This document shows, piece by piece, positions 23,369-48,918 of a stretch of DNA of 64,000 bases. The position numbers and the translations under genes are program-made. This DNA is from Diprion similis. Taxonomy: Eukaryota > Arthropoda > Insecta > Hymenoptera > Diprionidae. Location of the stretch: the NCBI RefSeq assembly GCF_021155765.1, contig NC_060115.1, positions 558,001 through 622,000 on the forward strand, read 5' to 3'. The notes under the pieces are model-generated. The model had not been told where the DNA came from and did not search any database. It saw nothing but the letters and a program-made list of their open reading frames with translations. The first letter of the stretch is position 1. The number at the start of each line of letters is the position of its first letter.

Positions 23369-24467
23369 ATGAACCGTTTTCTTGGCTTTCTACTCTTCGT
23401 GAGCTACGTATTTGCCAAGCCAGCGACCTACGACGAGTATCTCGCCCTCGAGGATGACATCGCTACCGTCGGCTCTATCCGTCGTGACGTGCGAGCTCCT
23501 CTGCCTTCAGGATTTGCCATCGAAGTAGCGGACCTCCTCAGCGCTGGAACTGAGGCCAGGAAATCGCGAGAGGCAAAAGGGGCCGCGGACCCTAAGAAGA
23601 CTGCGATGAAAAACGCATCGGGTAAGTTTCGTTTATCGTGTTTAACTTCGGACACCCTTACTTGGGGATTCCGGGAGCGACGACGAACCGTAATTTCTTT
23701 TTTATTCAACAAGTGACGCCTTTGAACACGTGCAATACTCCCTGTTTCAGGAAAATCCGACGAGGGTGGATACTACAAGAGTTACGGCAGCGATGCCGAG
23801 GGTGAAAAGGGGTATCTCAAGCAGACCTACAGCAAGGGTGATCACGGCTACAAGACCCTCGACACTTTCCACAAGCAAGACGGTGACAACTACGGTTTCG
23901 AGAAGCACACCGCGTTCGGTAAGGCCAAAGGAGCCGAGGAGGGCGGAGAACACGGAAAGAGCGGATCCTACAAGAGCGCCGAAGGCAGTGACGGCGACGA
24001 CCACGAGGGTGCCGGTAAGTTCACAAAATCGGAATCACGCAAAAAAATTGACAATGAATTAAGTTCATACCTCTCAACGCTGTCGAACGTCAAAATCGGG
24101 CGAATGCGTTCCATCTGGGATAAAAAACGACCAAATGAACCTCATTTTGAATCCAACAGGAACCATCGTGGACGCTCATTACGCCCCGTACGAAGGCGAA
24201 CACCACAGCGAGGGTGAACACGTGTCGTCCGAAGGGGGGGACGGTGGGCATTATACGGAAGGAGGGGACGGCGGGCACTACACAAGCGGCGGAGAGGGCA
24301 GCTCCGGAAGTTACTCAAGCGAGGGTGGAGACGCGGGGCATTACTCCACCGGGGGCGGGGCGGAGGGCTCATACGGAACGCACGGCTCCTACTCGAGCGC
24401 GGATGACTCTGGGGATCATCAGGGTTACGTAGACGGCGGCTCCGAGTACGAGGGCGATCACTACTAG
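23369..24467 (+). CDS. Gene A: secreted Gly/Ser/Asp/His-rich protein, three exons
   Basis: Exons are 23369-23621, 23751-24014 and 24160-24467, joined through GGTAAG / TTTCAG and CGGTAAG / AACAG; both introns are in phase 1 and the product is 274 aa. A signal peptide (about residues 1-16, MNRFLGFLLFVSYVFA) is followed by SIRR|D, a possible proprotein site, and a Lys/Gly region with GEKGYLKQTYSKGDHGYK and TLDTFHKQDG. This resembles the GEKGxKGYK and FHKDE modules of genes B-J in diverged form. Exon 3 is a GGDGGHYT-type Gly/Ser/His/Tyr repeat tail. Exon 2 is 264 bp with phase 1 at both ends, so skipping it would keep the frame. AATAAA lies at 24681. It is probably an extracellular structural protein; membership in the cluster family is inferred, and no function is recognised. 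Confidence 0.8.
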
Positions 24468-24680
24468 CTTACCCCCGGAACAACGAGGGGCGGAGATTAG
24501 CCGAAGTCGAAGTTTACAGCCACGGCTGAGTTGCACCTGCAGATCTAGAGGCATTGCGGATTTTGGCGGTTGAGATCACTTCCATCACCGTCCCGCAGCT
24601 ATTTTTGTACATATAACCTATTATATATGGTATAATGATTTGAAGAATGTTCACCACCATGTCACCGTTGTTAGTTCATT

Positions 24681-24686
24681 AATAAA
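24681..24686 (+). terminator. Poly(A) signal, gene A
   Basis: AATAAA 214 bp after the stop codon of gene A. Confidence 0.6.
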
Positions 24687-24689
24687 AAT

Positions 24690-27600
24690 TTGTTCAACTT
24701 CAGTTTATAACTTCTCGTATTCATTTCAGTCTTCTGACCACCCTCAATCCCTTCTCCACCCTGTAATCGATCGAACCACACCTGCGGGTAATTTAGTCAA
24801 GATTCATTCTCATAATGGTACCAAATTCCCAGCTGTTTTAATTCACGAGATGGAAAGAAAGTCCACATGAGAAAAAAATGTAACCAAGTACTGAAAATTT
24901 GATTGTAGTCCGTGGACATCCAACAGTTTTTCTTTCCTCAGTAATCATTTGTAAAATCTATCGAAATTTTCCGTAATTCTTGCGTCTTTTACGAGGAGGC
25001 TTTGCTGAAGACGTAAAATCGTTTTCAATTCTAAAAATATGTAGGTATCAAATATCGCCGTTGCTGGGCTAGCGATTCGGTTTTTTTAATTTTTGTTCTA
25101 GCCAAGGAGATAATTGCTACCTTGAAATTCTCGATAAAATAGATCTGGATAGCAGCTGGTGTTTGCTAATATTGTAAAAGAATGAATACCTACTCTTTAC
25201 TTGCTATGCGTAGAAAGCGTACTAGAATTCAGTTCCATGCTTTTACCTGATTGCCGATACCCACGTATCGTTAAAACGAAATTTAAGAGATTTTTAATTA
25301 TTCATGATATAATACCTGTGAGGGATTCTATTCAGAAATTGAGGTCCCTGACATCCTATGGGATGGGACGAATCTTCGGGAAATAGTTTCTAGCAGAAGC
25401 TGCTGCGTCTTGTCCAACTAGTTTGTATACGAGAGCAGAGAAGTTGGAAGTTCGCCGGTACATAGCAGACAAACTCTGATAGTCAGTGCTAATTCTCGGC
25501 AAAGTCCGACATCCCTGATTACAATAGGAACCGCAGGAGAGTTAATACAGTGTTTCCCTCAGATTATAATCAACTCCTGGAACCGAACGCGAAGACTCGC
25601 AAGTCACTGAAACAGTGTCCAGTTTCAATGCAGCCGCGAGTGGGGCTCTTCAGTGTAACACCCGCGGTGGCGTCCCGTTTTGACGGGACGAGACGGGCAA
25701 GAGTAATGCCAGCTAAATTTCAGGCAATAAAAAAGTAATCCATTCGGATCAGCGCCATTTAAATTGAGGAACAATTTCATTAGCAAAGGCGTCGTGCCGC
25801 ATGGGTACGCTTTGTTCGCGGCATGTCTGCTGGATTAATCCCATGGTTGGCGGGTGAGTGAGAATGTGGCCAGATCTGTGGGGCGGTTCGGCAAGACGGG
25901 GCGGGGGACGGGGCTCATCAACTGATTGCGGCCTCCACGTAAAGCAGGGGTTGAGGCGGGTGACTGTAATTAAGCAAATCTGTAAAAGAGATATTCAGGT
26001 TTAATATAATTGCAGCGACGTTGAATTCCCGCTATGTAAAGGGTTTGCATGACAAATGAGAGCTTATTTTATTTATACCGCAGAGTCCTCCGGCCACCAC
26101 GCTCCAAACTTTTCTCTTCGTTTATTTCGTTTATACAACATCGCGTTAATCTTCCGGAGCAAGGCATGAGGTATAACTCAATATCTCGCGCACTCCTTTT
26201 ATCCTTTCAAGCTCCCCCATACACCACTGACTCTCAGCCGGCGGTGGCTAATTAAAGGAAGGGTGAGACCGGGAGCTGACCTTGGTCTCAGCTCGGGATC
26301 GCATTGTGCCCGGCCCTTAAATTGGATTTGCCAGTCAAGCAGGTCGATTTGCGCGTGGTCAGGGTACCAAGAAACCGAGCCGAGGCCAAGCCGAGCGGCA
26401 ATGGTAGAGGATCGAGTCTCAGTGCTCGGGGTTTGAGGTGAAAAATAGAAAGGGAAGATAAAGAGTAGCTAGCTCTCGTTAACGCTCGGGAACTAGCCAA
26501 AGCAGAAAAGAAGAAAGGTGAAGAAGGAGGACTCACAAAGCATTCAGGCGCTTTGGTGCGAGGCGAAGGATGACAACCAAGGGAATCGAAGATTCTCCTC
26601 CTCCTCCTCCTCTTCCTCGGCTCACCGACGTTTTCACACGGCAACAAGCTCTCTCTGAAGATATCTGCTTACTAAGCAATCTCTTCATCTCCAGCTGAAG
26701 TATACAGCGCCATTCCAGAACGCAGCCTAATCTTCATTTCGACACCCTTTCTCCCTTGCTGCGAGTCCGAGCGTCTTGGCAGCCCGGCTGATTGTGAGTT
26801 CCATCCAGCTCTCGTTCGCTTCCGCGATTCATCCCCTTGGCGAATGTAACTTGGCTGCATCCAATCTTCATCTTGATTATGCAGCGCCAACAGACTAGCG
26901 GGCCAATCTGCAGGGGCCGACGAGATGTTGCTGCCAAACAGCCCGGTAAAAACTGTGGACCAGTAGCTATATCCGGTGATAAGTATACGTAATTCCTGTC
27001 TGTGTGTAGGGAATGCGAACTCCAGTATGAACCAAAACTTGAAGAGTTCTCGACATTACGAACGTGACTATCCAATATTTCACGCCGGGGTACCGAACCC
27101 AAGCTTTCTGTCTCTATGCAAATGCGGGGTCGAATCAGCGGAAGCTGCAAGGCTGCAAACAGACCGATATCCGTTGTTCGTGTGCTGCAGCTCCTCTAAC
27201 TTGATTTTAGGTCGATGTCCAACTGGTGGAGATATTCGATCTGTGAATAGCGGAACCAGTTTGAGTCCTCGCAAGTGACCGGGGGGCTATAATAACGGTA
27301 AACACACATTTAATGGAGCCAGTGTGAGGTTATTTTGAAAAATTTGGACTGATTTTTTGAAAACTCAAGCCCTCAGATTTTAAAAAAATCAGTCGTCTTA
27401 TCGAAGGTTGAGCCCTTCTGAAAATCATTTTACTGCTTACCTAGTAATATGCATTTAGTATTAGTTACGTAATACCAAGACGTGACATTTTCGTAGCCTC
27501 AAGTTGATACGACGATATTAAAACTTGGAACACATATGTTCATATTTTCATCCGCTGAGTATCTAATACCAGTATGGTAGTCAAGCAATGAATGAAATTG

Positions 27601-28980
27601 GATGCAGCTGAATTTTATTTGTCAAAAAGAGAGCACAAAAACACGTCTACTTACTATATATACGTTGGCCTCGTCAGTCGCGACTGGCAGAATGGATGAT
27701 AGAGGCAGACTCTACACATCGGTGAATGAACGAACGATTTTGGCTGCTGACGTTTCGAGTATGTGGCGTGCGCTCATAGAGAGGGATTTATTTGACGGGT
27801 GGTAGGATTAATGGCCAAATTACACGGTTTATTGGTAATCGCATGCATTTTCGACTGAGATGAGTGTGTGACGCATCCACGGGGTGTGGAGAGTTTAGCG
27901 ATGATCAGCTTCGCTTGCGAACATCCTGATGCGTACCCAGCAGCTGCAGAGTTAGAATGGTCGGGTTAATACGACATGGTCGATAAATCTATTAGGAATC
28001 GTTACTTTCTTACCATTATTATCCTCATCGCTATGACACGCGGAGTTTATTTTATTTAGAGCTAAAACACTTACGCGTGAAGTTCCAAGTTGCCATGCCC
28101 CGTGACCATAAGGGCTGGGTGCAAATTGGCTCAAGGTTGAATTTGCATAAATCACGAAGCCCTTCCGAGCTCAGGAAGTCGCCGTACCGGTGACCGGATG
28201 TTGGCTGGTTTGCTAATGGCTGACACTTAGACTAATGGTAGGGCTGCTGCATTCCAACGACCAGCTTCAGCCGATCGTCCCGTTCGAGGCGGTCGAACAC
28301 ACCGAACTTATCGACGGGTCGATGCGCCCTTGCCCTGGAGTCGGAATTGAAATTGCCTGGCTGAGGGGGAGACGAGGCCTGTATTTCGCATGAACGAACA
28401 GTTGAGTAAAATTTTAGGTACATGTAATGCGCAATTTCTATGGCTGATATTTGCACAAATTTATTGCAAACACGCTGACCTGCTTGATAATTACACAAGT
28501 AGGTACGTCTATACAAATGTGTCCTCGTCAAGAATCGAATCGTGGCGAAATTAATGAATCAGTATCGTTGATTTATCTGTACACCGACCCCCAAGTATTG
28601 GCATTGCAGAATTGCGTAATGCTTGACGTATGGTCTGGAAATGTTCCAGTGGCCTTTATTTCTCCGTGTTGGGGTGGGGGGGCGGGGGGCGGGGGGGGGG
28701 GGGGAGTTTGTCAAATATACGATGCACAATTTTCCGTTGCAGAACTAGGACGATCGGTGTAATTCGTTACCCACTGAAGTTACCCAAATGTTGTGCACGA
28801 GCAATGGTGCAGCTCGTTACAAGCAACGAAGCGGATTGATCTGAAGGCTAAATCAAACGAGGTTTCGGTTGAGAGCTCGTGAAAGCCAGCGGCCTACCGC
28901 GGTGGTCAATATTCGCCGCCACTCTCCGTCGATTAGGATGAAAGTGATCGAGATGCCCGGAAACCGCGGGGCAGGCCTCG
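24690..28980. other. 4.3-kb intergenic stretch, no supported gene
   Basis: No exon with signal peptide, family motif or consistent splicing was found. It contains a (TCC)n microsatellite at about 26594-26617 and a long G-rich tract at 28670-28704. A minus-strand frame at 26288-26647 is Arg/Leu/Ser-rich because of simple sequence and is not called. Confidence 0.6.
28670..28704 (+). repeat. Poly(G)-rich tract
   Basis: A run of more than 30 bases made of G with single T and C interruptions and a final block of about 15 G. It could form a G-quadruplex on the plus strand, or be a homopolymer-prone assembly region. It lies about 280 bp upstream of the gene B promoter. Confidence 0.8.
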
Positions 28981-28984
28981 ATAA

Positions 28985-29021
28985 TATTTAAGTCAGCATA
29001 CCTCCCGCCAAGTTATCAGTT
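28985..29021 (+). promoter_or_regulatory. TATA box and Inr of gene B
   Basis: TATTTAAG at 28985-28992 is followed by TCAGTT at 29016-29021, with the presumed +1 A at 29018. This is the classic spacing and predicts a 5' UTR of about 29 nt. Confidence 0.75.
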
Positions 29022-29046
29022 TAGTTTCGAGTTTCGATAGATCAAG

Positions 29047-29820
29047 ATGGTGCGAAGTGTCGGGGTTCGCTTGCTCCTAGCCTCGGGCATCCTCTGCGTC
29101 CTGATCGTCTTCACGGCGGCGCGGGACGTCAGGGACATCAAGCGAAGAGATGAACGTGATCTAGACCTGGTAGCCGCAGCCTCGGGACACGGCCATCATT
29201 CGGAGTCGGGCGGAGGGCACAAGCATCACTCCGACCACCATGAAAGCCACGGTGAGAAGGGGGACAAGGGCTACAAGAAGCACCATCACCACGACGAGGG
29301 TGATCACGGAGAGCACGGGAAGGAGCACCATGCTGGGCACCACGAGGAGCACGGCGGCCACGAGAAGAAACACCACGACGAGGCGGGGAAGTACGGCGAG
29401 CACCACGAGGGCGAGAAGGGCCACAAGGGTGGGAAGTTTGGGGAAAAGAAGGGCCACAAGAAGGGGCACAAGACCAAGGGGTACCACAATAAGTTCCACA
29501 AGGACGAGTATCACAAGGAGCACAAGTTTTACGACGACTACCACAAGGGTGGACACCACGCGAAGCACGGTGACTTCCATGGGCACCATGAGAAGAAGGA
29601 AGGCGGCCACAAGAAGGGCGGTCACCATCACTCTGGCTACCATGATGACCACCACGGTAAGAAGGGCCATCACGACAAGGGACACCACGACGAGGATCAC
29701 AAGGGTCATCACGGGAAACATGGACACGAGGAGCACCATGCACACCACGATTCGTACGCCAAGAAGGGTGCCCATAAAGACGGAAAGAAATACGGATTCA
29801 GCAAGGGTCACAAGGGCTGA
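29047..29820 (+). CDS. Gene B: secreted His/Lys/Gly-rich protein (257 aa), single exon
   Basis: An intronless frame starts at the first ATG after the predicted transcription start. Residues 1-25 form a signal peptide ending FTAA. Next come a basic site (DIKRR|D) and the N-terminal motif DLVAAASGHGHH (residues 40-51). A first module GEKGDKGYKKHHHH begins near residue 69, the core GYHNKFHKDEYHKEHKFYDD spans 145-164, a KKGGHHHSGYHDDHHGKKG tract follows, and a KKYGFS motif lies near the C terminus. The rest is dominated by His, Lys, Gly, Asp and Glu. It closely matches C and E. Proteins of this look are often named histidine-rich glycoprotein-like in insects, from memory. Metal binding or crosslinking through His is inference. 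No canonical AATAAA is seen close downstream; AATAAG occurs at 29960. Confidence 0.88.
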   Translation: MVRSVGVRLLLASGILCVLIVFTAARDVRDIKRRDERDLDLVAAASGHGHHSESGGGHKHHSDHHESHGEKGDKGYKKHHHHDEGDHGEHGKEHHAGHHEEHGGHEKKHHDEAGKYGEHHEGEKGHKGGKFGEKKGHKKGHKTKGYHNKFHKDEYHKEHKFYDDYHKGGHHAKHGDFHGHHEKKEGGHKKGGHHHSGYHDDHHGKKGHHDKGHHDEDHKGHHGKHGHEEHHAHHDSYAKKGAHKDGKKYGFSKGHKG

Positions 29821-29989
29821 TTATCCCTTGAGTTTCCGGCTGAGGGGATCGACCAGGGATGTTATTTATATGATAGCTTTAATCACTGTACATATACTTT
29901 GTCAAATCCAAAACGCAGGACATGCGTCATCGAACATGCGATATGGTTTTTTATTTGTAAATAAGTGTACTGAATATTTTATAGTTGTA

Positions 29990-32350
29990 TTTTATTCATT
30001 ATTTTGTTGTACGTACATACATCATGTATCGCTAAGTCATTTGACATGTTTCTGTTGTCAGTGTTGTTCAATATACCAACTTACCTTTGTGTTCTAAACC
30101 ACAGTTTCCTTGCAATCTTTAAGACCCTCTTCGAAGACTTGTATCCCTGTTACTTGTGTCAAAATAATCAGTTCTTCAGCATTACAAGATCTTATTGTCT
30201 ATAACAGCTTCACGATTGTCAGAGTCGTGAGCAGCAATCGCTTGGACCCCAGGCTAATCTCGGTTTCATTTACTCAATCGCTCATTTTTATTTAGTCGCT
30301 TTCTGTCCCTAGTCCTATTGTTTCATCCATGCCGTTTAACATTATTTTTATTCCTGAAAGCTGTTATGACCTCAAAACTGATCTTTAACGATATTAGCTC
30401 AAGAGATTAAACTCCAGTTTTATTCGCTATCCATTTTCCGGAATTTACGTTCACCCTCTTCGGAGCATACGGTTCATTTGATATGCGTACTATTACTTGC
30501 ACAGACGCTTTGCAGTTTTGTACCCGTAACAAACTTGAGTGCGGGTTTTACGCGTAATTAATTTTTTCTGTCCATCTGTATTTCGGTATTCACGGGAAAA
30601 TTTAATTCCCAACTCTTCGCGGAGTTAATTGCTTCGCTTTAGAGAAGAGTGCTGGCAGGCCTACAAGCGTTTAACATCTGCAGTATTTGTTTATACCGCG
30701 ATAACGATGAGTTATCACAGTATACGTAAAATTATAAGTATTTTTTATTTTACCCGCGATACGCTATGGGCTTCTGAAAGAATGTAAGGTGATTCACTCT
30801 TCGCACTGTTTATATATTTGTTCAGTTTACCTCTGATCGTCAGAATTGCCCACATGGTACGTACAGCCGCTAGATTTTACGTCACGCAAGGCTGAAAGCA
30901 AATTCCGAACAAGCCACTTGCCTGCAGGTTTTGCATTAATTGGCAAGTTTCAGTGTCACTACTATGCAGTATTCATGCGGGTGAAACACTTTCCGTAATT
31001 CGCGTTATACAAATGACATCACGCTATTGTTAATCGTGGAAACACAGCATTCGCCAGGAATCTAGTCAAATTAATTTCAGTAAAAACAATTTACGACGTC
31101 ACTCTGGGCAAGTACGTATATGCATGTCTGTTCATTGGAACTGAAAATTAAAGGACACGTAACAAATTGTTGAACAAATAAAATACACCTAACGAATCCA
31201 CGAAATGAGTTTCGTGTTGCTCTTTATCACATGGACGGAGCATGCACGCCGAAATGAATTCAGTAAATATTTGCGGATGTACGTAGAGTTAGGAGAAATT
31301 TATTGCGATGAATAGCACGTAATACGAGGTGAAGCATTCGACTCTCACCGTCAACAGCGATGCTTCTAAATTATTGAACCCCCAAGTGTCTCATGATTTT
31401 CAGTCGAAAATCTGCCGAAATCCCGAGAATCGGTGTGCATCAGAGTTTCGGTTTAACTGATATTTATTCTCAGCTGCGAGAAATGCGTGTAAAAGACAAT
31501 TTATTTTCAGATATGATTTATCATGTTAATCCGTTCAAAGGATTTTCAATTTCTCCGATGTAAGTACTAAATAATTTTAATTTTACAGACTGGCTCTGTA
31601 AGGTTATGGTAAAACAGCGAAATTGGTGAATAATTATAATCTGTAATTAGTGGATGCCAGCCGAGTTGATGCCGGTATTAGGAATTGCTTATCAATTTCA
31701 GTTATTGCATGCGGTTAAAGAGAGCGAGAAGTAACGAGGGGTGGGAAAGATACGCACCATAGTTCGAGGGTATGCTTGAAACAAACCAATTTCGGTGCGG
31801 CAACAGATATTGCTTTTATTAATAGTTAACTAGCACCGTTGCGAATGGAAACTCGTGCGGATCACATTTCATTTGCAGGGAAACAAGACGTAGATGTGAT
31901 TCTTTACGCTGTTCCATGTACGTACGATGAGCTGACAACCAAATTACATAAATATTCTTTGAAAAGTAGTCGCCTACGTTCCCTGTTAGTTTCATAATGA
32001 TGAGTCCTGGGTAATGTGAGTGACGGGCTTCGATCAGTTTTGCATAGGTGTTTGTGGTACGGGCCGTTATCTAAGTGATCAGGTTACGCAAGTCTGATCT
32101 AGGCTAAAGTTAATTGACCAAATCGCCACAAAAACTTACCACCGTCCTTTTTGCCATCTGGGTTGTTTTACCCACTTCACGGCTCGTCTGTCTGTCTGCG
32201 TCAACTACTATCATTGCGAATCGTGGTGCCGTGCCACATGACTGCGCATCGTGTAGAAGACCACTTACACGAAAGCGAAACCGTGTGCTGCACGCTGCTG
32301 GTCTCAAGTATTGAGGATTTCATGCAGCGGCCCGGTTCCAAAAGAAATAA
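29990..32350. other. 2.4-kb intergenic stretch between genes B and C
   Basis: AT-rich unique sequence with no coding exon, RNA gene or repeat that I can support. Short open frames near 30004-30295 and 32110-32357 lack family motifs and splice logic. Confidence 0.6.
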
Positions 32351-32352
32351 GA

Positions 32353-32411: not shown

Positions 32412-33203
32412 ATGACTCGAGGTATAGGGCGAGGATTTTTGGCGCTCGCTGTGCTCTGCGCCGCTTTGGCAGCAGTCGCAGCGAAGGAGGATCTTGAAAA
32501 GAGGGACAAGCATGCCGTAGACCAGGTCGTGGCCGCTACAGGGCACGGCCACCACTCTGAGTCCGGCGGAGGACACAAGCACCACTCCGACCACCACGAG
32601 GAGCATGGTGAGAAGGGTGACAAGGGCTACAAGAAGCATCACCATCACGACAAGGGTGATCACGGCAAACACGGGAAAGAGCATCACGAGGGGCACCACG
32701 AGGAGCACGGTGGCCATAAGAAGAAGCACCACGACGAGGCCGGTAAGCACGGTGAGCACCACGAGGGCGAGAAGGGTCACAAGGGAGCAAAGTTCGGAGA
32801 AAAGAAGGGGCACAAGAAAGGCCAGAAGACCAGCGGATACCACCACAAGGCCCATAAAGATGAGTACCACAAGGAGCACAAGTTCTACGACGACTACCAT
32901 AAGGGCGGACACCACGCGAAGCACGGTGACTTCCACGGGCATCATGGAAAGAAGGAGGGAGGCCACAAGAAGGGTGGTCACGATCACTCCGGCTACCATG
33001 ATGACCACCATGGTAAGAAGGGACATCACGAGAAGGGGCACCACGACGAAGACCACAAGGGTCATCACAGCAAACACGGACATGAAAGCCACCACGCCCA
33101 TCACGAGGAACACGCGAAGAAGGGTGGTCATTCTGGCGGAAAGAAGCACGGCTTCTCAAGTGGTGGTGGCGGTGGGGGCGGCGGCGGCGGTGGACATCAC
33201 TAA
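32412..33203 (+). CDS. Gene C: secreted His/Lys/Gly-rich protein with poly-Gly tail (263 aa)
   Basis: The start is the ATG at 32412, the first ATG after the predicted cap site; an in-frame TTG at 32406 is not a likely start. Signal peptide about 1-24 (MTRGIGRGFLALAVLCAALA...). A dibasic LEKR|D precedes the VDQVVAATGHGHH motif. Module GEKGDKGYKKHHHH lies near 67-80, and the core GYHHKAHKDEYHKEHKFYD spans 142-160. Next come EGGHKKGGHDHSGYHDDHH and the C-terminal KKHGFSS. Unlike its relatives it ends in a long uninterrupted run of Gly and then HH, encoded by GGN repeats that could vary in length. It is nearest to gene B, with most modules identical in order. ATTAAA at 33350 is a possible poly(A) signal. 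Extracellular structural role inferred. Confidence 0.88.
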   Translation: MTRGIGRGFLALAVLCAALAAVAAKEDLEKRDKHAVDQVVAATGHGHHSESGGGHKHHSDHHEEHGEKGDKGYKKHHHHDKGDHGKHGKEHHEGHHEEHGGHKKKHHDEAGKHGEHHEGEKGHKGAKFGEKKGHKKGQKTSGYHHKAHKDEYHKEHKFYDDYHKGGHHAKHGDFHGHHGKKEGGHKKGGHDHSGYHDDHHGKKGHHEKGHHDEDHKGHHSKHGHESHHAHHEEHAKKGGHSGGKKHGFSSGGGGGGGGGGGHH

Positions 33204-34684: not shown

Positions 34685-35419
34685 TTAATGTCCTTTCTTG
34701 AAAGCCCATTTCTTGTGGTCCTCGTGACCTCCCTTCTTTCCGTACCCGTGGTGGTGATGGTGGTGCTCATCGTGACCTCCGGCCCCTTTGTGACCCTTGT
34801 GGTCATGATGATGAGATCCCTTTTCGTGGTGTCCCTTCTTTCCGTAGTGGTCTTCGTGGTGGCCGCTATGATGATGGCCTCCCTTGTGGTGGCCGCCCTT
34901 CTTGTGTCCGTGCTCGTGATGATGCCCGCCATGCTTCTCGTGGTGACCGGAGTCGTGATGTTCGTCATGGAACTCCTTATCCTTCTTGTACTCGTCGAGT
35001 TTCTTGACTTCGTGATGACCCTTGGTGCTGTGCCCTTTTCCGTAGTGTCCCTTCTCACCATATTTATGGCCCTTCTCACCCTTTTCGCCCTTGTGGTGCT
35101 CAGCATGGTAGCCGTCATCGTGGTGATGGTGCTTTTTGTGACCGCCGTGGTCACTGTAGTGACCATGGTGTCCCTCCTTGTCGTGGTGGCCCTTTTCTCC
35201 CTTCTCGTGGTCGTGGTGCGACTTGTAGCCCTTGTCACCTTTGTCCCCGTGGTGATGGAAATGATCGGAGTGGTGTTCCTCACCACCACCTTTCTCGAAG
35301 TGGTGCTTGGACTCGGCTGCCTCAAGATCGCGGCGATCCCTTATCTCTCTGCATGAGGCAATGGCCACGCAAAATAGCAGCGCCATGCACAACGGCAAAG
35401 TGCCGCTCAACGATACCAT
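34685..35419 (-). CDS. Gene D: secreted His/Lys/Gly-rich protein (244 aa), paralog of F
   Basis: Minus-strand, single exon. The start is the ATG at 35419; the frame is open further to a GTG at 35485, but the first ATG after the predicted cap site gives a proper signal peptide (MVSLSGTLPLCMALLFCVAI..., about 1-23). An RDRR|D site directly precedes DLEAAESKHHFEKGGG. A GDKGDKGYKSHHDHEKGEKG module begins near residue 58. The core is the variant GHHEVKKLDEYKKDKEFHDE (134-153), where FYD has become FHD. The tail contains KKGGHHKGGHHHSGHHEDHY and ends HKKWAFKKGH. It is the same length as gene F and almost identical through residues 59-130 and the C terminus, so the two are recent duplicates or are held alike by gene conversion. 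Confidence 0.87.
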   Translation of the reverse strand: MVSLSGTLPLCMALLFCVAIASCREIRDRRDLEAAESKHHFEKGGGEEHHSDHFHHHGDKGDKGYKSHHDHEKGEKGHHDKEGHHGHYSDHGGHKKHHHHDDGYHAEHHKGEKGEKGHKYGEKGHYGKGHSTKGHHEVKKLDEYKKDKEFHDEHHDSGHHEKHGGHHHEHGHKKGGHHKGGHHHSGHHEDHYGKKGHHEKGSHHHDHKGHKGAGGHDEHHHHHHGYGKKGGHEDHKKWAFKKGH

Positions 35420-37638: not shown

Positions 37639-38388
37639 TTAATGATGTCCGTGGGAGTAACCGTGCTTCTTGCCTTCGTGGTGTCCACCCTTCTTTCCGT
37701 AGTCTTCGTGATGCGAGTGATGGTGATCGTGTCCGTGTTTTCCATGCCAGCCTTTGTGGTCATGGTCGAAGTGTCCCTTGTCGTGGTGTCCCTTCTTGCC
37801 ATGGTGATCATCGTGGTAGCCGGAGTGGTGGTGGCCTCCCTTCTTGTGGTGGCCTTCCTTGGATCCGTGATGCCCGTGATGGTGTCCGTGCTTTTCATGG
37901 TGCCCACCCTTGTGGTGGTCATCGTAGAACTTGTGTTCCTTGTGGTATTCGTCCTTGTGGGCCTTTTTGTGGTAGCCGTGGCTCTTCTCGCCCTTTTTGT
38001 GTCCCTTCTTCTCTCCGAATTTGTGTCCTTTGTGGCCGTGTCCGTGCTCGTGGTGATGGCCGTGGTGGCCATCCTCGTGATGGTGCCCCTTCTTATGGCC
38101 GCCGTGCTCCTCGTGGTGCCCAGCGTGATGCTCTTTGCCATGATGACCATGGTCGCCCTCGTGGTGGTGATGGTGCTTCTTGTAACCCTTGTCACCCTTC
38201 TCGCCGTGCTCCTCATGGTGGTCAGAGTGATGCTTGTGGCCTCCGCCGGACTCGTGGTGATGACCATGGTGCGATGCGGCGGCCACGAGATCCCTCTTCT
38301 CCCTCACATCACGGGCAGTGGAAGCTGATATCACAGCGCAGAGCACCGCCAGTGCCAGGCAGGACTTTAACCCGAACCCCCTGGCCAT
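37639..38388 (-). CDS. Gene E: secreted His/Lys/Gly-rich protein (249 aa)
   Basis: Minus-strand, single exon. In-frame ATGs exist at 38436, 38433, 38412 and 38388. The TATA/Inr pair puts the cap site near 38423, which excludes the first two. The ATG at 38412 is only 11 nt from the cap, and 38388 aligns with the start of gene C (MARGFG versus MTRGIG), so 38388 is chosen. Signal peptide about 1-25 (SLALAVLCA-type core), then the furin-like REKR|D directly before DLVAAASHHGHH. GEKGDKGYKKHHHHH module near 62-76, core GYHKKAHKDEYHKEHKFYDD 138-157, then KKGGHHHSGYHDDHHGKKG, ending GKKHGYSHGHH. It is closest to B and C and divergent from gene F, whose start lies 861 bp away. Confidence 0.87.
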   Translation of the reverse strand: MARGFGLKSCLALAVLCAVISASTARDVREKRDLVAAASHHGHHHESGGGHKHHSDHHEEHGEKGDKGYKKHHHHHEGDHGHHGKEHHAGHHEEHGGHKKGHHHEDGHHGHHHEHGHGHKGHKFGEKKGHKKGEKSHGYHKKAHKDEYHKEHKFYDDHHKGGHHEKHGHHHGHHGSKEGHHKKGGHHHSGYHDDHHGKKGHHDKGHFDHDHKGWHGKHGHDHHHSHHEDYGKKGGHHEGKKHGYSHGHH

Positions 38389-39248: not shown

Positions 39249-39983
39249 ATGAAGTGTCTAGTGGTGGTGTGTCTGCTGGCCGTTTCTTTGGAGTACAGTC
39301 TAACGAGTGCTCGTCAGATCGACCCGAGGAATCGGCGCGATCTCGAAGCGGCCGCGTCACATCATCACTTCGAGAAGGGCGGGGGTGAGGAGCACCACGC
39401 CGATCACCACTCTGAGAAGGGAGAAAAAGGTGACAAGGGCTACAAGTCGCACCACGACCACGAGAAGGGAGAGAAGGGCCACCACGACAAGGAGGGACAC
39501 CACGGTCACTACAGCGACCACGGTGGTCACAAGAAGCACCACCATCACGACGACGGATATTACGCAGAGCACCACAAAGGTGAGAAGGGTGAGAAGGGTC
39601 ATAAATATGGAGAGAAGGGACACTACCACAAGGGTCACAGCACCAAGGGACACCATGAAATCCACAAGCTTGATGAGTACAAAAAAGATAAAGAATTTTA
39701 TGACGAACACCACGACTCGGGCCATCACGAGAAGCATGGTGGGCATCATCACGAGCATGGGCACAAGAAGGGTGGCCACCACAAGGGAGGCCACCATCAC
39801 AGCGGCCATCACGAGGACCACTACGGAAAGAAGGGACACCACGAGAAAGGATCTCATCATCATGACCACAAGGGACACAAAGCCGCCGGGGGTCACGACG
39901 AGCACCACCATCACCACCACGGGTACGGAAAGAAGGGAGGTCACGAGGACCACAAGAAATGGGCCTTCAAAAAGGGCCATTAG
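39249..39983 (+). CDS. Gene F: secreted His/Lys/Gly-rich protein (244 aa), paralog of D
   Basis: The start is the ATG at 39249; the frame opens earlier at a GTG (39243), which is not chosen. Signal peptide MKCLVVVCLLAVSLEYSLTS (about 1-21). RNRR|D precedes DLEAAASHHHFEKGGGEEHH. The central part repeats gene D nearly residue for residue: GDKGYKSHHDHEKGEKG, GHYSDHGGHKKHHHHDDGY, GEKGEKGHKYGEKGHY. The core variant is GHHEIHKLDEYKKDKEFYDE (134-153), and the C terminus HKKWAFKKGH is identical to D. The signal peptides of D and F are clearly different, so similarity starts inside the mature protein. AATAAA lies at 40108. Confidence 0.88.
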   Translation: MKCLVVVCLLAVSLEYSLTSARQIDPRNRRDLEAAASHHHFEKGGGEEHHADHHSEKGEKGDKGYKSHHDHEKGEKGHHDKEGHHGHYSDHGGHKKHHHHDDGYYAEHHKGEKGEKGHKYGEKGHYHKGHSTKGHHEIHKLDEYKKDKEFYDEHHDSGHHEKHGGHHHEHGHKKGGHHKGGHHHSGHHEDHYGKKGHHEKGSHHHDHKGHKAAGGHDEHHHHHHGYGKKGGHEDHKKWAFKKGH

Positions 39984-40107: not shown

Positions 40108-40113
40108 AATAAA
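40108..40113 (+). terminator. Poly(A) signal, gene F
   Basis: AATAAA 125 bp after the stop of gene F. Confidence 0.65.
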
Positions 40114-40139
40114 TCTTCCGAAACAGTATATTAATTTAG

Positions 40140-41230: not shown

Positions 41231-41235
41231 CGGCG

Positions 41236-41243
41236 TATAAATA
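41236..41243 (+). promoter_or_regulatory. TATA box of gene G
   Basis: TATAAATA 119 bp before the gene G start codon. No clear TCAGT initiator is seen at the expected distance; the cap site would fall near 41267. Confidence 0.65.
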
Positions 41244-41354
41244 ACTTGCAATCATCTAGTTTCTGGATAGTTTTACCTAGTCACTCGCTAATGACAGTCT
41301 GCATAACTCGAGCCATAGCTCGAACTTCTCGAATCTTCGATAGACTGCTGAACG

Positions 41355-43056
41355 ATGCGAACAACGTATCCGTTCATACTCGTTCAGGCAGTCGCTTTGT
41401 TTTTTACCGAGACAAAGTCTGACCCGGTTTTCTCGGTAAATATTATCAAAAGACTGGTCCAGGATCTTCAAACTTCGCCGTCTGGATACAGCTTCAGTCA
41501 CCATAGCGACAGTCATCATCCTGGGGGATACAAGGCGAATGTCAAACATGGCACGACGAAGATGTCTCGGCGAATCGGGATAAGGAGTGCGACAAATATG
41601 AAGAGCGCCGGGCCCAGTTCTCTCGGGGGTTCCGTGAACCACGATATGACTCGAAGTTATCAGCTCGCTGGAAGTTATGGGTTTGTGATATCCCACGGAT
41701 TTAATGTCGGGGAAAATGACGACGCGACCCCAGTCAGCGATGCACATTACGGTGAGGTTTATAATATACAATCGATCGCTTCAAGCCATCCAGGTTGCAC
41801 CGGTGGCTGCGTCATTCCTTCCTTTAATTCCTTGATGTCTTGTCGTAGGAGCGAGTAATGCTGATCCTGTTAGTATTGCGGTTTTGCAGCTGAACAAGGA
41901 GGACTCTAATGAACCGAATGTCAACCCTAACGTAAAGGCTCAGAGAATCGGGGTCGACTCCGAAGAAGAAACATACGGATCGTACTCGGATTATGACAAG
42001 CTTTTCGATCATGACAAAAACTCACCATCCGTCAATCCGCAGCAATATTACGGATCGGATCTCCAGGATGAACGAAAAGAAAAATATGCCATGCAGGATG
42101 GATACGGTGAATCTAATAACGGCGGGAATGAGGGGACAAATGTTGAAACCGAGAAATATATTAGAACTGAAGATTCCAGTGACAAGGGGCGAGGAGACCA
42201 AATCGATGATGGGAAGGGTGAAAAATATTTTGACATGGTGTACGGTGGGTTCAGTTACTCTAATCCCAGTAAGAGAATAGAATCATATGAGGAATACGGC
42301 GACAATGAGAGTCACGAAAAATACAGCGAGCCTTTGGAAAAAGAATCTCAGCTGGTTACGGATGACAAAAGTAATTACGACAAACTGTACCCGTCCATCG
42401 ATTGGAGCCAATATAATATAGATCCGAAATTCGAATTTGCGGACGACTTCTTGGCAGATGATTTCTTCAAAGAATACAATGAATTTTTCTACGGCAGTCG
42501 TGGCAAGTCTGGGCATGATCATGATTTTCACTTCGAACACGAAGATCACGGCGATCACGGCTTCGAGGATGACAGTGGCCATCATTTCGAAGGTGGGCAC
42601 AGCGCGCAAGATTTTTTCGACCATTCGGACTTCGGCGGTGATTATTACGAAACGGGAGCTGGTGAAAAGAACAATAACTTTGGAGAAAAGAGTGGTAGCA
42701 AAAAGAGCATAAAAGAAACGGGGTATCATAATGTACTGCACAAAGATGAATTTAACAAAGATCACACATTCTACTCAAACGCGGACCAGGATGGTCATTT
42801 CGATAAAGAGAAAGATTACCATGGGCATCATTCCCTGCACGGCAAGAATCACGAAAATGCCGGTTATCAGGACTCTCGCTCGCACGATGACCATCACGGG
42901 AAAGGTTACGACACAGACAAGGGGCACTACGACAATGACGATATTTCTCATCACGACGAAGACGATCACACGTCCTTTTTCGGTGATAAATCCGAGTATA
43001 ACGATGCCGGGGATGATGAATATGACATCGAACACGAAGATAGCCATGAGTATTGA
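41355..43056 (+). CDS. Gene G: acidic, His/Asp/Glu-rich secreted protein (534 aa), two exons
   Basis: Exon 1 is 41355-41751 (donor ACG|GTGAGG) and exon 2 is 41849-43056 (acceptor TGTCGTAG|GA). Phase 1 on both sides gives DAHYG-G-ASNADP in frame. The N terminus MRTTYPFILVQAVALFFTET is a plausible signal peptide, followed by QDLQTSPSGYSF (37-48), matching the DLExSASGY motif of H-J. The long middle region is Asp/Glu/Tyr/Ser-rich (for example FADDFLADDFFKEYNEFF). The core GYHNVLHKDEFNKDHTFY spans 424-441, but the following tail is Asp/His-rich rather than Lys-rich and ends in acidic HEDSHEY. It is the largest and most acidic member of the cluster, and the usual KK-[YHW]-G C-terminal motif is missing. 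AATAAA lies at 43389. Confidence 0.83.
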
Positions 43057-43388
43057 AAGCTGATCGTGAACTAAATAGCTTACCTCGATGTGTAAATTAG
43101 CTTTCTAAGGCCTCGTAGATTCGAAGTTTCAGCCTTCGAGGGTAAGGCAAGCCCCTTAGTGGCTGCAGGTGAATAATTAGTTGATGGTAGGTAAGCCTTG
43201 GACGATTGGTACGTGCATTTGACTTTCTGCAGAGAAATTTCAGTAACGTTATTGCCCAACTAGAAATAACACAGGACTTATGATGTGTACATTATATGCA
43301 CCTACGATGAATTGAAAGAAATAGTGCACACAGCATGGATACTAGCAAATTGTCATTAGCGCAACAACGCCATATTATATCTTGTACA

Positions 43389-43394
43389 ATAAAT
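43389..43394 (+). terminator. Poly(A) signal, gene G
   Basis: AATAAA 333 bp past the gene G stop, in the 418-bp gap to the convergent gene H. Confidence 0.5.
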
Positions 43395-43474
43395 AACCAT
43401 ATAATAAAATAACGTTACAGAGTCGATACATTTGCCATGAATAAAATCATATCACGCTTATATTTCATCGCCCA

Positions 43475-45085
43475 CTAATAGATTTTTTTGACATAGTCAT
43501 CCGATGACTGTCCATACTTCTTTTCCCCCTTGTGACCCTCCTTCTTGGCGTATTCAATCTCATTATCGAAGTGCTCCTTCTCCCCCGCTTCTCGGTCGTG
43601 GCCTTGAAGAGCGCCGTACTGATGTCCGTTTGTGAACGATCCCTTCTTCGCCTGGTTCTCCTCGTGGTGAGCAGCGTCAACCTTTTCAGCCTTCTCATAC
43701 TCGCCCTTGGCGGCGTCGTGATGTGCGTTTTCTGATCCGTACGTCTCCTTGTGGCCACTTGCATGATCGGAGTCATAGAAGGACGTGTCCTTCTTGAATT
43801 CGTCTTTGTGGTAGACGTTGTGGAAGCCGGACGTTTTGTGTCCCTTTTTGTGCCCCCCGCTCTTGTGAAAGGTCTCTCCCTTCTCGCCCTTGGCGGCAGC
43901 GTTGGACTCCGCGTACTTCTTCTCCTCTTCGGCTTCACCCTTTTTCTCCCCACCAGCGCTGCTGTAGGCACCCGCCTGCTTCTCCTCGTCTATCTTTCCT
44001 TTCTCGCCCTTGTCAAAACCCTCAGCGACCTTGTACCCCTTCGAGCCCTTTTCGCCACCGGCCGCCACTTGAGCCGCTTGGAACTCGGCACCTCCGCCGT
44101 TGTTGTACGCCCCTGCGCTAGCGGCTCCACCAATGCCTCCGTGTCCCAATCCCCCAAGAGACCCCGTTATTGGAATGTACTGACCATGAGCTAGACCAGC
44201 CCCTCCGCCGATCCCGCCGTACCCCAGGCCCCCCTGCAATCCCCCCGCCTGAATCAGCCCGTTTCCCAAGCCCCCCAGCCCCTGAAGCCCACCCCCCAGT
44301 CCGCCCCCGAGTCCAGCTAGGCCAATACCGTTTTTTGAAACCCCGTAACCGAGCCCTAGACCGCCGGCTGCTCCCCCGCCGTAACCAAGTCCGCCGATCC
44401 CTAGGCCAGTCTCGTCAAAGCCACCCCCACCGATATTTCCGCTGTAGCCGGTCAGGGAGGCAATATTGTTGGACCCGATGTCACCTGCGTGATTGAGCCA
44501 ATTAGTAATGATTGGTGTGGAATGAACAGTGAAATTGATCGAGATCAGCGTTAAAATCCTTTTAAAGTAAGAACAAAATTCTTGGAGTGAAATCGAGGCT
44601 TGTGGGTGACAATATCGAAAAGATATTATTATAATTGTGGTGTTACGAGAGCTGATCGATGAACAGAAACTCAGCGACCTTGCAGTCTGAAGAAACCTTG
44701 TGCAAATATCACGTTACTCACCACCACCAAAGTTTCCTATACTGTATTTAGATGGAAAATTGATTCCTGAGCCTCCTGAAAATTGTCCGAATCTCCCGGA
44801 ACCCCCGAAATTTCCACCTCCGAGTGACCCGATACCCTGCAGAGGCGAGCCGTAATTGTAACCACCGGAAATACCGGAACTCAACCCTCCGGAGTTGAAA
44901 AGTTGGCCTTGACCGTTCCCGTTTCGCCTAAATATGTAGCCAGTCGCTGAAGTCTCGAGATCTTCGGATCCGGGGCCAGAGACCACAAGATTTTTGTCGC
45001 TGTCATCTGCCGTTGAAACTGGCTTTGTGGCACTAACAGTAAAACTGAAAAAGCACACTAATGCGACACTTGTGAATAATTTCAT
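43475..45085 (-). CDS. Gene H: Gly-rich secreted protein with His/Lys core domain (457 aa), two exons
   Basis: Minus-strand. Exon 1 is 45085-44722 (donor GGTG|GTGAGT, written through the split codon) and exon 2 is 44484-43475 (acceptor ACGCAG|GTGAC); phase 1 keeps one frame. Signal peptide about 1-19 (MKLFTSVALVCFFSFTVSA). Motif EDLETSATGYIF at 41-52. Residues about 55-205 are glycine-rich with GLGGLGYGG-type repeats, as in some cuticle or silk-like proteins. Then comes a GEKGSKGYKVAEGF module, a KGEKGETFHKSGGHKKGHKTS stretch, and the core GFHNVYHKDEFKKDTSFYD starting at residue 341. The tail is Lys/Glu/Ala-rich and ends near KKYGQSSDDY. It therefore fuses a Gly-rich domain to the family core. 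No poly(A) signal was identified. Confidence 0.84.
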
Positions 45086-45182
45086 TTTCGAAGCTTTTTG
45101 AATTTTAGCATAACACCCTTATCCGACTATTATCCGTAAAACGACGCGGTTTGTTTTAATGTTCAGCATGAGCCCGCAGCTC

Positions 45183-45190
45183 CTTTTATA
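45183..45190 (-). promoter_or_regulatory. TATA box of gene H
   Basis: TATAAAAG on the minus strand (45190-45183), 98 bp before the ATG at 45085; the cap site would be near 45159. Confidence 0.65.
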
Positions 45191-45194
45191 TGAA

Positions 45195-45520
45195 TAATCT
45201 TTGGCAACTGCCGGATTACTGTTGCCTCATGTTCCACGATATGTGGATTACAAGCTAATTAAAGGAATCCTGCTTCCTTCGCGAAATGCTGAAGTTGCAA
45301 ATTAGACGTATATCCGTTCTCAATTCCGCTGTTGCATACCTGTCCCACATATCAGAGTGAGTCCGCCGGCGGCAAACGTACGAGACTTTACTCACCAGTC
45401 AACCGGAAAATCAGTCTGAATTCGGCTTTGGATCCTACAAGGATCTGTAACCAGTATTTTATTCAAAATCCCACTGAATTTTGTTTCCGAAAAAAAACAA
45501 CGATGAGTATAATGGTTTCA
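45195..45520. other. Spacer between genes H and I
   Basis: No gene supported. Separates the 5' end of H from the 3' end of I; both are on the minus strand. Confidence 0.55.
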
Positions 45521-45527
45521 CATTTGA

Positions 45528-45533
45528 TTTATT
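45528..45533 (-). terminator. Poly(A) signal, gene I
   Basis: TTTATT on the plus strand reads AATAAA on the minus strand, 111 bp past the gene I stop. Confidence 0.6.
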
Positions 45534-45643
45534 CATTCCATACGCGCACTTAATTAAAACGTAACTTGAAAAACAAAACAAAACAGGCTCAACTTGGCAT
45601 AAAGACAGTGCATGATTCGCGTTAGTATAGCAGAGGAAGTTAA

Positions 45644-46948
45644 TCACGAGGTGTATCTGCTGGGTTCATGATGCCCCTTTGCATAGCCATGCTTTTTGCC
45701 CGAACTGGCTGCATCCTTCGCAGCATAATCAGCATAATTTTCACGGTAGGCCTGGTAGCCCTTCGCGTCGCTGTGACCCTGGTCCTCTTTGTAGTCGTGA
45801 CCCTTGTCAAACCCACCATCCTCCGCGGCATCATTTCGAGCATATGCAGAGTCGTGATGGCCCCCTTTCTTGAAACCACCCTCGGCGGAAACATGGTGTC
45901 CCCCGAATGCACCCTGTTTCTCAAAGTGGCCACTTTTATGGGCGTCGTCATAAAAGTCGGTGTCCTTCTTGTACTCGTCCTTGTGATAAACGTTGTGGAA
46001 GCCACTTGTCTTATGGCCCTTCTTATGGGAGGCTTCGGTGCCGTAGCTTAAACCACCCTCACCCTTTGATCCTTCCTCGTGTCCGGCATAGTGGCCGCTG
46101 GTGCTGCTGTGAGATTTTTTACGCCCGCCGTCGGCGCTGTAGTGACCTAAAAGAAGTAAATTGTAAAAACTGAATACACCAGTCGCTGATTCCGTCGGAC
46201 GTCACTTACCCTTGTGATTCTCGCTCTCGTGTCTACCCTTCTCGTTGTTATCAAAGTCCTGATGATTCTTGTACCCCTTCTCTCCCTTCTCTCCATGGGC
46301 AGAATGCTTCTTTGCACTATGCTCTGCGCCGCCCTCGGACTCGTAGTCAGACCCGCTAGTCTTGGCTGGTTCGATGAAACCGTGTCCGAAAGAAGGGTCG
46401 TATTCCTCTTCATCGTCGTCTTCATCGTCTTCATCCGCGCTGTGATGGTCTTCATCATTCTCTTCATCATCATCGTCCTCCTCGTCATCAGCGATTTCAA
46501 CCTTCTGAGGAACCTGGTCGACCTTCACAGGCACGAAGTAAGGCGCCAGCGGTTCTTTCTGCTTCGGTAACAACGGTAGGATGTATCCGGTGGGCAAACC
46601 AAGCTTGTAGTTATCCGGTGCGTTTTGAGCGTACTGATGCGACGCTGGTCTAAATTTCAAGATGTTTTCTGGTGCCCCGTAAGCCACGGAAGCCGGTTCG
46701 GGTGCAGAGGCGATGTAGCTGATCACCGGGGTTGGGGCGTTGTGGAAGTTTCCGGCTGCATGGTTGTTGAAATGAACGTACGAGACGGGGGCACCGTGCT
46801 GCTGCTGATATGAGTATCCGCTGGCCGAAGCCTCCATATCGGCAAGATTCGTCCGTGAAACCGACACGCTTTCTAGGTTAGACGGCATCGCGGCAACGCA
46901 TCCGAGGGCAGCGAAGAAACACCACATCATCGTTTGGTACACAACCAT
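45644..46948 (-). CDS. Gene I: secreted protein with Asp/Glu tract and His/Lys core (413 aa), two exons
   Basis: Minus-strand. Exon 1 is 46948-46210 (donor AAGG|GTAAGT) and exon 2 is 46146-45644 (acceptor CTTTTAG|GTCAC), phase 1. Exon 2 has no usable ATG, so it is easy to miss. The start is the first ATG below the TATA box. Signal peptide 1-20 (MVVYQTMMWCFFAALGCVAA), motif LADMEASASGYSY at 35-47, then a Pro/Ala/Tyr-rich segment. An almost pure Asp/Glu tract lies at 152-182 with two internal His. GEKGEKGYKNHQDF module near 219. Exon 2 encodes GFHNVYHKDEYKKDTDFYDD (295-314), SAEGGFKKGGHHDSAYA and a C-terminal GKKHGYAKGHH. Closest relative is gene J, which is divergently arranged next to it and lacks the intron. 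Confidence 0.86.
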
Positions 46949-47034
46949 TTTCACAAGGAGCTCCTGCGCTGAAATACACTTATGTCCGTAAAGGGTGAAC
47001 TGACCACTGGTTGCCTCTGTGTTCCACTGCGAGC

Positions 47035-47043
47035 CTTTATATA
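47035..47043 (-). promoter_or_regulatory. TATA box of gene I
   Basis: TATATAAAG on the minus strand (47043-47035), 95 bp before the chosen ATG at 46948. In-frame ATGs at 47065 and 47056 lie upstream of it and are excluded. TCAGTT is found at 47003-46998, somewhat farther than the ideal distance. Confidence 0.65.
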
Positions 47044-47049
47044 CCGGTT

Positions 47050-47665
47050 TTCTCATACCGTGCATGGAGTGTCATTATGCCAGTATAATTTCATGGCCGC
47101 TAATAATTCAAGAACAATCTCTTGTTATTGACTATCTTTCGAACCTCTATAGCTGAGTAGTGTTGGAAAGATTTTGCGTAACCCGGCGCGCCCTGACGCT
47201 AGTCGGTTAAATATCTTTTAACGCAATCGCCACTGCTTTAGCCACGGTCACTCGCCGGACGATGGAACCAATTAATTCGGCCACGCCGCGAGTGCAGAGT
47301 CTTTAGATGGCGATCTGCGTACCCATCGTCGTAGGGTAATAGTGGCTCGCGTGGCTTATTTTGACAGGAGACTTCTTGTCGCGTTCGGACTCAAAGATTG
47401 TTTTGAATCGGTGCGGTGTTCAGGTTTCTATTCATATTTTTCATCGGCGATTATAATATAAATATAATATGTATTGACGGGACGTGGTCGAGCGATTTGC
47501 GGTTTATCGTTTGCACCACCGTCCAGATCGGCTAACCTTGAGTGCGCAATACCGTTCAGCTTCGTGAAATCTGACAGTTTGTTGAAATACCTAACAAATT
47601 GTCCTTCCAAGTGCATTCTCGTCAAACACAGTAGCCAATCCGGTACGTCAGCCAGGTGATTGGCG
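47050..47665. other. Divergent promoter region of genes I and J
   Basis: About 600 bp between the outward TATA boxes of I and J. No coding exon supported; a minus-strand frame at 47428-47829 crosses the J promoter and is not called. Confidence 0.5.
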
Positions 47666-47670
47666 CAAGG

Positions 47671-47706
47671 TATAAAAGAGACGGATCTGTATTGGGGTAA
47701 CAGTTT
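47671..47706 (+). promoter_or_regulatory. TATA box and Inr of gene J
   Basis: TATAAAAG at 47671-47678 and CAGTTT at 47701-47706 (A at 47702, 31 bp downstream). Predicts a 5' UTR of about 134 nt. Confidence 0.75.
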
Positions 47707-47835
47707 ATATTGGCGACGTTTGTCGAATAGTTTATCAATCCGATTGCGTCGATCGGATAGAAAATACATTGGTTTACGTTCTGAAATACAAAAGGCAAAG
47801 CAAAAGAAGGAAACAACATACACAAACACATAAAT

Positions 47836-48918
47836 ATGAGTGGCTTATGGAGAGTTTTTCTGGTGACCTGTCTACTTGACGTCGGCTTATCTTATCCGGC
47901 AAAGGAGCAGGCTGGCAAAATGTACGTCTCGAAGACGAAGATGTCGGATCTTGAGTCGTCCGCAAGCGGCTACGTCTACAAAAACCTCCCTGCGTCAAAG
48001 TACGCTGAAATAATAAACGAGGGACTGCGAGAGTTCGAGGAGGCGCCCGCTGCAGCTCCGGCGAAAAAATCAGCCAAAAAGGAGTTCGTTCTGCTCCCTT
48101 CAATTCAGCTGGAGCCTGATGCAGAGATGCTGCCAGCTCATTACACGAGGGTTGAACCACCGGGCGTCGACCACATGGAGATATCGTTCCAGGATCCGGA
48201 AGCCTTGGGTTCGTACAGAAGTTCGCTGATCGAGGGAACGCCGGAGGCGGACGCGGCGCCCGCCGCCTTCGCGAAGACCGGGGAGTTCCAGGAGGGGGCC
48301 GGGAAGCAATACGCCGCGGAGAAGCACGCGGCCGAGGGAAAGAAGGGGGAGAAGGGCTTTAAGAAGGCTGAGGAATTCGAGGAGGCCGTCAAGGGTGAGC
48401 ACGACAACGAGAATCACAAGGGGAGCTACGCCGAGGCGGCCGGCAAGAAGAAGGCCTACGATGAGACCGAGAAGCACTACGCGGGGCACAAGGATTCGGC
48501 AGAGGCGGACAAGGGCGCGAGCTACGAGCTGGAGGGCCACCACGAAAAGGGGCACAACAACGCCGGCTTCCACAACGTCTATCACAAGGACGAATACAAG
48601 AAAGATTCAGACTTCTACGACAAGGATCACAGGGGAGGCAAGTTCAGGAAGCACGGTCACTACGGTGAGAAGCACACCTCGGCTGAGGGTGGATTCAAGA
48701 AGGGCGGAAACCACGACTCGGGATACGCCGAGGCTGACGAAGCCAAGGAGGGTGAATTTGCCAAGGGGCACGAGAGAGAGGCGAAGAAGGGGCACGCCGC
48801 AAAGCAGGGGTACGGCGGGTTCTTTGGAAATTTCGAGGAGTTCGCCAAAAAGGGCGGCGCCGCCGAAGCGAAGAAGTACGGCTTCAGCAGCGGCGACAGC
48901 GCGAAGGAGTCTCGCTGA
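47836..48918 (+). CDS. Gene J: secreted Ala/Glu/Lys/His-rich protein (360 aa), single exon
   Basis: Intronless. Signal peptide about 1-19 (MSGLWRVFLVTCLLDVGLS). Motif MSDLESSASGYVYK at 36-49, nearly the same as in I. A mixed segment with Pro and hydrophobic residues (EFVLLPSIQLEP) follows, then an Ala/Glu/Lys-rich region. GKKGEKGFKKAEEFEE module near 168-183, NENHKGSYAEAAGKKKA at 191-207, and core GFHNVYHKDEYKKDSDFYD at 244-262. TSAEGGFKKGGNHDSGYAE follows, with KKYGFSSGD near the C terminus. The ENHKG at 192-196 is where gene I is interrupted by its intron, so J has lost it or never had it. Fewer His and more Ala/Glu than B-F. AATAAA lies at 49070. Confidence 0.88.
   Translation: MSGLWRVFLVTCLLDVGLSYPAKEQAGKMYVSKTKMSDLESSASGYVYKNLPASKYAEIINEGLREFEEAPAAAPAKKSAKKEFVLLPSIQLEPDAEMLPAHYTRVEPPGVDHMEISFQDPEALGSYRSSLIEGTPEADAAPAAFAKTGEFQEGAGKQYAAEKHAAEGKKGEKGFKKAEEFEEAVKGEHDNENHKGSYAEAAGKKKAYDETEKHYAGHKDSAEADKGASYELEGHHEKGHNNAGFHNVYHKDEYKKDSDFYDKDHRGGKFRKHGHYGEKHTSAEGGFKKGGNHDSGYAEADEAKEGEFAKGHEREAKKGHAAKQGYGGFFGNFEEFAKKGGAAEAKKYGFSSGDSAKESR

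Follow-up and report, generated by a model that had tools for sequence, protein, structure and literature searches.

Nine clustered DUF4779 genes of Diprion similis encoding secreted-looking, probably structural proteins

Do the low-complexity proteins encoded side by side on one contig of the hymenopteran Diprion similis form a real family, and if so, what might they do? The question is raised by a stretch of 64,000 nucleotides (contig NC_060115.1, here C11, positions 558001-622000), hereafter the window, in which an initial annotation described ten secreted, His/Lys/Gly-rich genes, A to J, sharing a core motif. The region concerned runs from window position 23369 (the ATG of gene A) to 48918 (the stop of gene J). 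We analysed it together with the rest of the genome, the genome-wide searches taking in 269 Mb in 60 contigs. Genes B to J, nine genes packed within 20 kb, form a new cluster of DUF4779 (PF16009), a family that is known but unstudied and whose domain is already in Pfam, and gene A is a neighbour of this cluster and not a member. The observation made in the initial annotation is partly confirmed, and its interpretation is partly supported.

A DUF4779 family beyond shared composition

The proteins were compared to Pfam-A with hmmscan, using the curated cut-off of 27 bits and, for G, H and I, only the domain exon. All nine genes B-J matched PF16009 above the cut-off, with scores of 57.7-155.3 bits and E-values between 1.8e-45 and 2e-15 (B 7e-44, C 3e-42, D 3e-40, E 5e-38, F 2e-45, G 2e-15, H 1e-35, I 1e-30, J 5e-36). 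Model positions 1 or 2 to 160 were covered by B-F, H and J. The Pfam comparison thus returned a domain that is already listed, and not a new one. With respect to the PF16009 model, the similarity among B-J extends past the 160 Pfam positions into a C-terminal stretch with KK-x-[GA], found in eight of the nine members in the joint alignment (G excepted), while the gene clustering and the breadth of filler composition are particular to this locus.

The whole-genome DUF4779 search found 15 places, counted as 13 genes, a number which is a lower bound. Besides B-J these are K and L, two His-rich genes split over exons at C11:2.54 Mb (C11:2542242-2547274; L024 and L025), and the outlying genes M (C1:8.68 Mb) and N (C1:11.82 Mb), both of which share the core. 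DUF4779 is known from insects. A DUF4779 search over 14 control genomes gave no matches, no solved structure matched the family profile at E 1, and of 139 pattern matches to DUF4779 relatives in viral contigs none was confirmed. In the open-licence PMC literature, a scope outside which most subscription papers fall, we found no paper naming DUF4779 or PF16009.

The core reported in the initial annotation was recovered as described: the exact motif had nine matches in the six frames of the window, one each in proteins B-J, and none when each of the ten proteins was shuffled 20,000 times. The GEKG-x-KGYK-type module said to precede it is present in eight of the nine members, in the form G-x-KG-x-KG[YF]K, and gene G is without it. 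The surroundings are as varied as had been claimed, His making up 28-36% of the domain in B-F and 8-15% in G-J.

Proteins of such composition might align by chance without belonging to any real family, and the large HMMER bias terms (34-136 bits) speak for this explanation. We therefore compared each member with its own shuffles in 18 member tests of 1000 shuffles each, half of them full and half local (blocks of 10), against profiles trained without the tested protein but with columns from one joint alignment; M was represented by its core exon only, and K and L by their domain exons. Against a profile of B-F, all eight of G-N outscored every one of their 500 full and 500 local shuffles, and against a profile of H, I and J all ten of B-G and K-N did the same, so that no shuffle reached the real score in any of the 18 tests. 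The weakest results against the B-F profile were 13.4 bits for N (best shuffle 9.9) and 29.6 for M (best shuffle 3.8). Even the 32-residue core alone allowed G, H, I, J, M and N each to outscore all 2000 shuffles. Furthermore, eight of the nine members (all but G) can be aligned across 184 residues with zero indels, G requiring a single gap of 6 near the end, and two loci on another contig (C1) carry the same core. The composition-only explanation is refuted for B-N by the shuffles, and we regard the probability that there is no family as negligible. The composition control proposed with the initial annotation has thus been run, and the similarity between members outlasts shuffling.

Sixteen columns of the alignment are invariant in B-J (block numbering from 0): Gly at 1, 4, 7, 20, 29, 77, 101 and 144, and E25, K71, H79, D85, E86, K89, F93 and H113. 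A separate alignment of the domain exons retains 10 of the 16, and the other six fall in the half that is absent from exon 2 of gene I. Between the invariant positions, the filler ranges across members from His/Lys/Gly to Ala/Glu to Asp/Ser.

For gene A, composition is the correct answer. This gene (23369-24467, forward strand; exons 23369-23621, 23751-24014 and 24160-24467) encodes a secreted-looking, Gly/Ser-rich protein of 274 residues and had been presented as a diverged member. It contains no core match and has no Pfam match up to E 10. As a DUF4779 candidate it failed all three composition tests, 366 of 500 full shuffles scoring as high against the 13-gene profile, and the core-only test gave p 0.58. 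When its central exon was searched across the genome, it matched itself only. Since gene A has neither core nor Pfam match and scores like its own shuffles, the cluster comprises nine genes and not ten.

Gene models, protein anatomy and gene history

Gene models were built from open frames and splice signals only, with splice sites inferred from the sequence. B-F and J have a single exon, G, H and I two, and A three. The intronless genes on the forward strand are B (29047-29820, 257 residues, His 24%, DUF4779 at 29206-29682), C (32412-33203, 263 residues, His 25%, DUF4779 at 32562-33038), F (39249-39983, 244 residues, His 27%, DUF4779 at 39372-39851) and the Ala/Glu-rich J (47836-48918, 360 residues, DUF4779 at 48292-48768). 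Intronless D (34685-35419, 244 residues, His 27%, DUF4779 at 34817-35296) and E (37639-38388, 249 residues, His 32%, DUF4779 at 37774-38250) lie on the reverse strand. The start of E was placed at the ATG 3' of a TATA motif at -66, other in-frame ATGs lying further upstream. The acidic G (41355-43056, forward, 534 residues; exons 41355-41751 and 41849-43056) has its domain at 42493-42924 and a putative GT-AG intron in phase 1. Gly-rich H (43475-45085, reverse, 457 residues; exons 45085-44722 and 44484-43475) carries the domain at 43625-44101. In I (45644-46948, reverse, 413 residues; exons 46948-46210 and 46146-45644) a phase-1 intron lies within DUF4779, the exon-2 portion of the domain being at 45800-46147. 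Eight of the nine members, B being the exception, have a TATA motif in the 200 bp preceding the ATG, as do nine of ten genes counting A (binomial 5e-9 for the ten). The motif occurs at 9.4% of 5000 random positions of the window, a control that is not one of matched upstream regions. This enrichment upstream of the ATGs supports the assigned gene starts.

All ten proteins were initially described as secreted, which holds as far as the look of the sequence goes: the N-termini are hydrophobic and signal-peptide-like to the eye. None of the ten, A included, has a Cys after residue 25. In B-G (six of the nine members) a KR or RR pair follows the signal peptide and precedes a D[LM]-x-[AST]-[AS]-like motif, and in H, I and J no dibasic pair was seen after the signal peptide. 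The pair might mark the removal of a short propeptide. In its fuller form, D[LM]-x-[AST]-[AS]-x-[SG], the N-terminal motif lies outside the Pfam domain and fits seven of the nine members (B, D, E, F, G, I and J), with at most one hit when each N-terminus was shuffled 20,000 times; the expression was drawn by eye from the same sequences and misses C and H, which to the eye resemble the other members here.

AlphaFold2 gave the domain region of J a mean pLDDT (predicted local distance difference test) of 41.2 and a pTM (predicted template modelling score) of 0.10 with a 9-row alignment. For exon 2 of gene I the values were 44.3 and 0.10 with 11 rows, the core scoring best, yet only 50-54. The initial idea of a defined domain within low complexity stands for a conserved sequence domain, and AlphaFold2, run on these shallow alignments, lends no support to a folded unit.

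The closest copies are under strong purifying selection. Within the domain, 8 of 184 residues distinguish D from F, against 48 additional codons with silent changes only (dN, nonsynonymous divergence, 0.025; dS, synonymous divergence, 0.99). For B and C, 22 residues differ and 50 additional codons carry silent changes (dN 0.067, dS 1.34), and for C and E dN is 0.139 and dS 2.36. In the domain dS was not computable for B/E and I/J, and over the whole alignment it was not computable for B/E, C/E, B/D, E/F and I/J. Taken with the B/J pair discussed below, these values indicate that the duplicates are old, that close copies keep their protein, and that the subgroups have drifted apart. B-J would have arisen by old local duplication.

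In the tree, strong support was obtained for D with F, K with L, these four together, and M with N; support was moderate for B, C and E (87/90) and for I and J (86/84). G and N sit on long branches and several deep forks are unsettled; six rows differ in letter composition, outside what the models handle. In K and L a phase-0 intron splits the core between K and DE; in K this intron would, by eye, need a GC donor instead of GT. As the other 11 genes, the outlying M and N among them, have an unbroken core, intron gain in K/L is the simpler explanation. The intronless state requires three changes on the tree, of which the strong branches force two. A retroposition origin of the intronless B-F is not supported, intron gain in K/L being simpler.

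Possible roles of the B-J proteins

The reading that we favour, with a probability of about one half, is that B-J are disordered structural proteins that are secreted, most likely into the cuticle, and there become cross-linked by oxidised catechols through their His and Lys residues. They would be structural proteins of an epithelial secretion, the cuticle being the most likely one, and the fixed Gly/charged/aromatic core would act as a contact aligning the chains among themselves or to a further matrix component. Laccase 2 would make quinones and quinone methides from N-acetyl- or N-beta-alanyl-dopamine (NADA or NBAD), and these would attack the His and Lys side chains. The His-rich B-F would then harden densely and the His-poorer G-J less so.

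Known proteins offer parallels. TcCP30 of Tribolium is described as a low-complexity protein with 21% His, cross-linked by laccase 2 and required for the adult moult (PMC4440208). By that description it resembles B-J in being secreted, His-rich, of low complexity and without the RR motif, but it differs in having 171 residues, 36% Glu and 19% Arg, and the comparison was made by description only (PMC4440208). BmorCPR152 of Bombyx, with 45% His, is reported to form films with laccase 2 and NADA/NBAD, and this protein and other His-rich wing-scale cuticular proteins recall B-F in their very high His content (PMC8062583). It is, however, named in the CPR (RR) family (PMC8062583), whereas the scanned parts of B-J are without an RR domain. 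The wing-scale study counts dopamine N-acetyltransferase among the enzymes pointing to NADA synthesis (PMC8062583). An open frame resembling an arylalkylamine/dopamine N-acetyltransferase (AANAT) of insect type (window 50491-51018, forward strand; best match 6v3t, E 3e-9) begins about 1.6 kb past J. Since the AANAT family is large in insects, we give this neighbour little weight for a link to NADA.

Several observations weigh against the cuticular reading. In the domain of H, I and J, His amounts to just 8-11%, so that cross-linking through His cannot be what all members do in common, and the property conserved across it is the Gly/DE/K/F register and not the His content. The Pfam scan found no Chitin_bind_4 (PF00379, RR) match in B-F, J or the domain exons of G, H and I, the first exons of these three being outside the scan. 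The genome-wide listing of RR matches has 82 entries, not one of them on C11, and no PF00379 match was found there at E 1e-5. TcCP30 and BmorCPR152 are likened to B-J by composition and chemistry only. The shallow AlphaFold2 alignments (9 and 11 rows) mean that disorder is favoured and not proven, and the dibasic pair is not specific, since the non-member gene A also has RR. Constraint on the protein is far weaker between subgroups than among close copies, B/J giving dN 0.50 and dS 1.28.

The same disordered, cross-linkable type of protein could also come from another epithelium, as a silk, glue, egg-shell or other gland secretion. We consider this unlikely to be the answer, though signal-peptide-like N-termini, low complexity, TATA motifs, the lack of late Cys and purifying selection fit any abundant secreted material, and no observation made here counts against a gland secretion or separates it from cuticle. 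That B-J are metal-binding matrix proteins, in which the His clusters of B-F hold Zn, Cu or Mn and thereby harden mandible, sting or ovipositor or store metal, seems to us doubtful. B-F contain 24-32% His, and published work deals with metals in gall-wasp mandibles and ovipositors and with the Zn/Mn-rich tools of an ant and other animals (PMC3722128, PMC8410824). On the other hand, AlphaFold2 predicts no fold or fixed ligand site, and of the 16 invariant positions just two are His, so a conserved property common to the members is not to be seen in metal binding. An antimicrobial or immune role, by resemblance to the His-rich hisnavicins of Nasonia and Neodiprion, is improbable. Clustered His-rich hymenopteran genes have been annotated in this way, 18 Hisnavicin genes being reported in Neodiprion lecontei, and the likeness to B-J was drawn by description only (PMC10542623). 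The very low dN/dS among close copies here speaks against such a role.

We also considered whether the cluster might correspond to the Vajk/Nimrod cluster. Vajk/CPLCP proteins are cuticular and partly clustered, and Peptidase_M2 (Ance) genes are expected near the Nimrod/Vajk cluster. Peptidase_M2 was found at C1:1.02 Mb and on C7 and C8, away from the DUF4779 genes, which lie on C11 and, on C1, at 8.7 and 11.8 Mb, so this identity is not supported. Vajk-4 is given as the orthologue of mosquito CPLCP3 (PMC8667434), and CPLCP denotes low-complexity proline-rich proteins (PMC8062583).

It is possible, if speculative, that DUF4779 proteins amount to a tunable kit of unfolded matrix polymers, in which evolution preserves the length and the spacing of 16 anchors over 184 positions although no fold demands it, and the filler is swapped wholesale. 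One locus would then supply graded cross-link densities, and the DE-x2-K-x3-F core would be a lateral contact that fixes the register. As a genome finding there is nothing unusual in the cluster, in which insect proteins of one family, secreted-looking and probably structural, are encoded side by side. It is a compact natural series, with one conserved register, nine fillers and His in the domain ranging from 8% to 36%, and it is suited to testing how cross-linking and stiffness of insect materials depend on His content.

Sequences flanking the cluster

Positions 1-21316 of the window are a tandem 312-bp satellite (68 copies, 95% matches), which ends 2 kb before gene A. Relatives of this satellite were seen on C4, C7, C8, C11 and C13, with 13 of 2336 candidates scored. 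On the reverse strand, at 61770-63346, lie pieces of a UDP-glycosyltransferase: 61770-62063 matches UDPGT with E 3e-14, and 62834-63346, a weak glycosyltransferase match (E 0.005), was joined to this piece by position and look.
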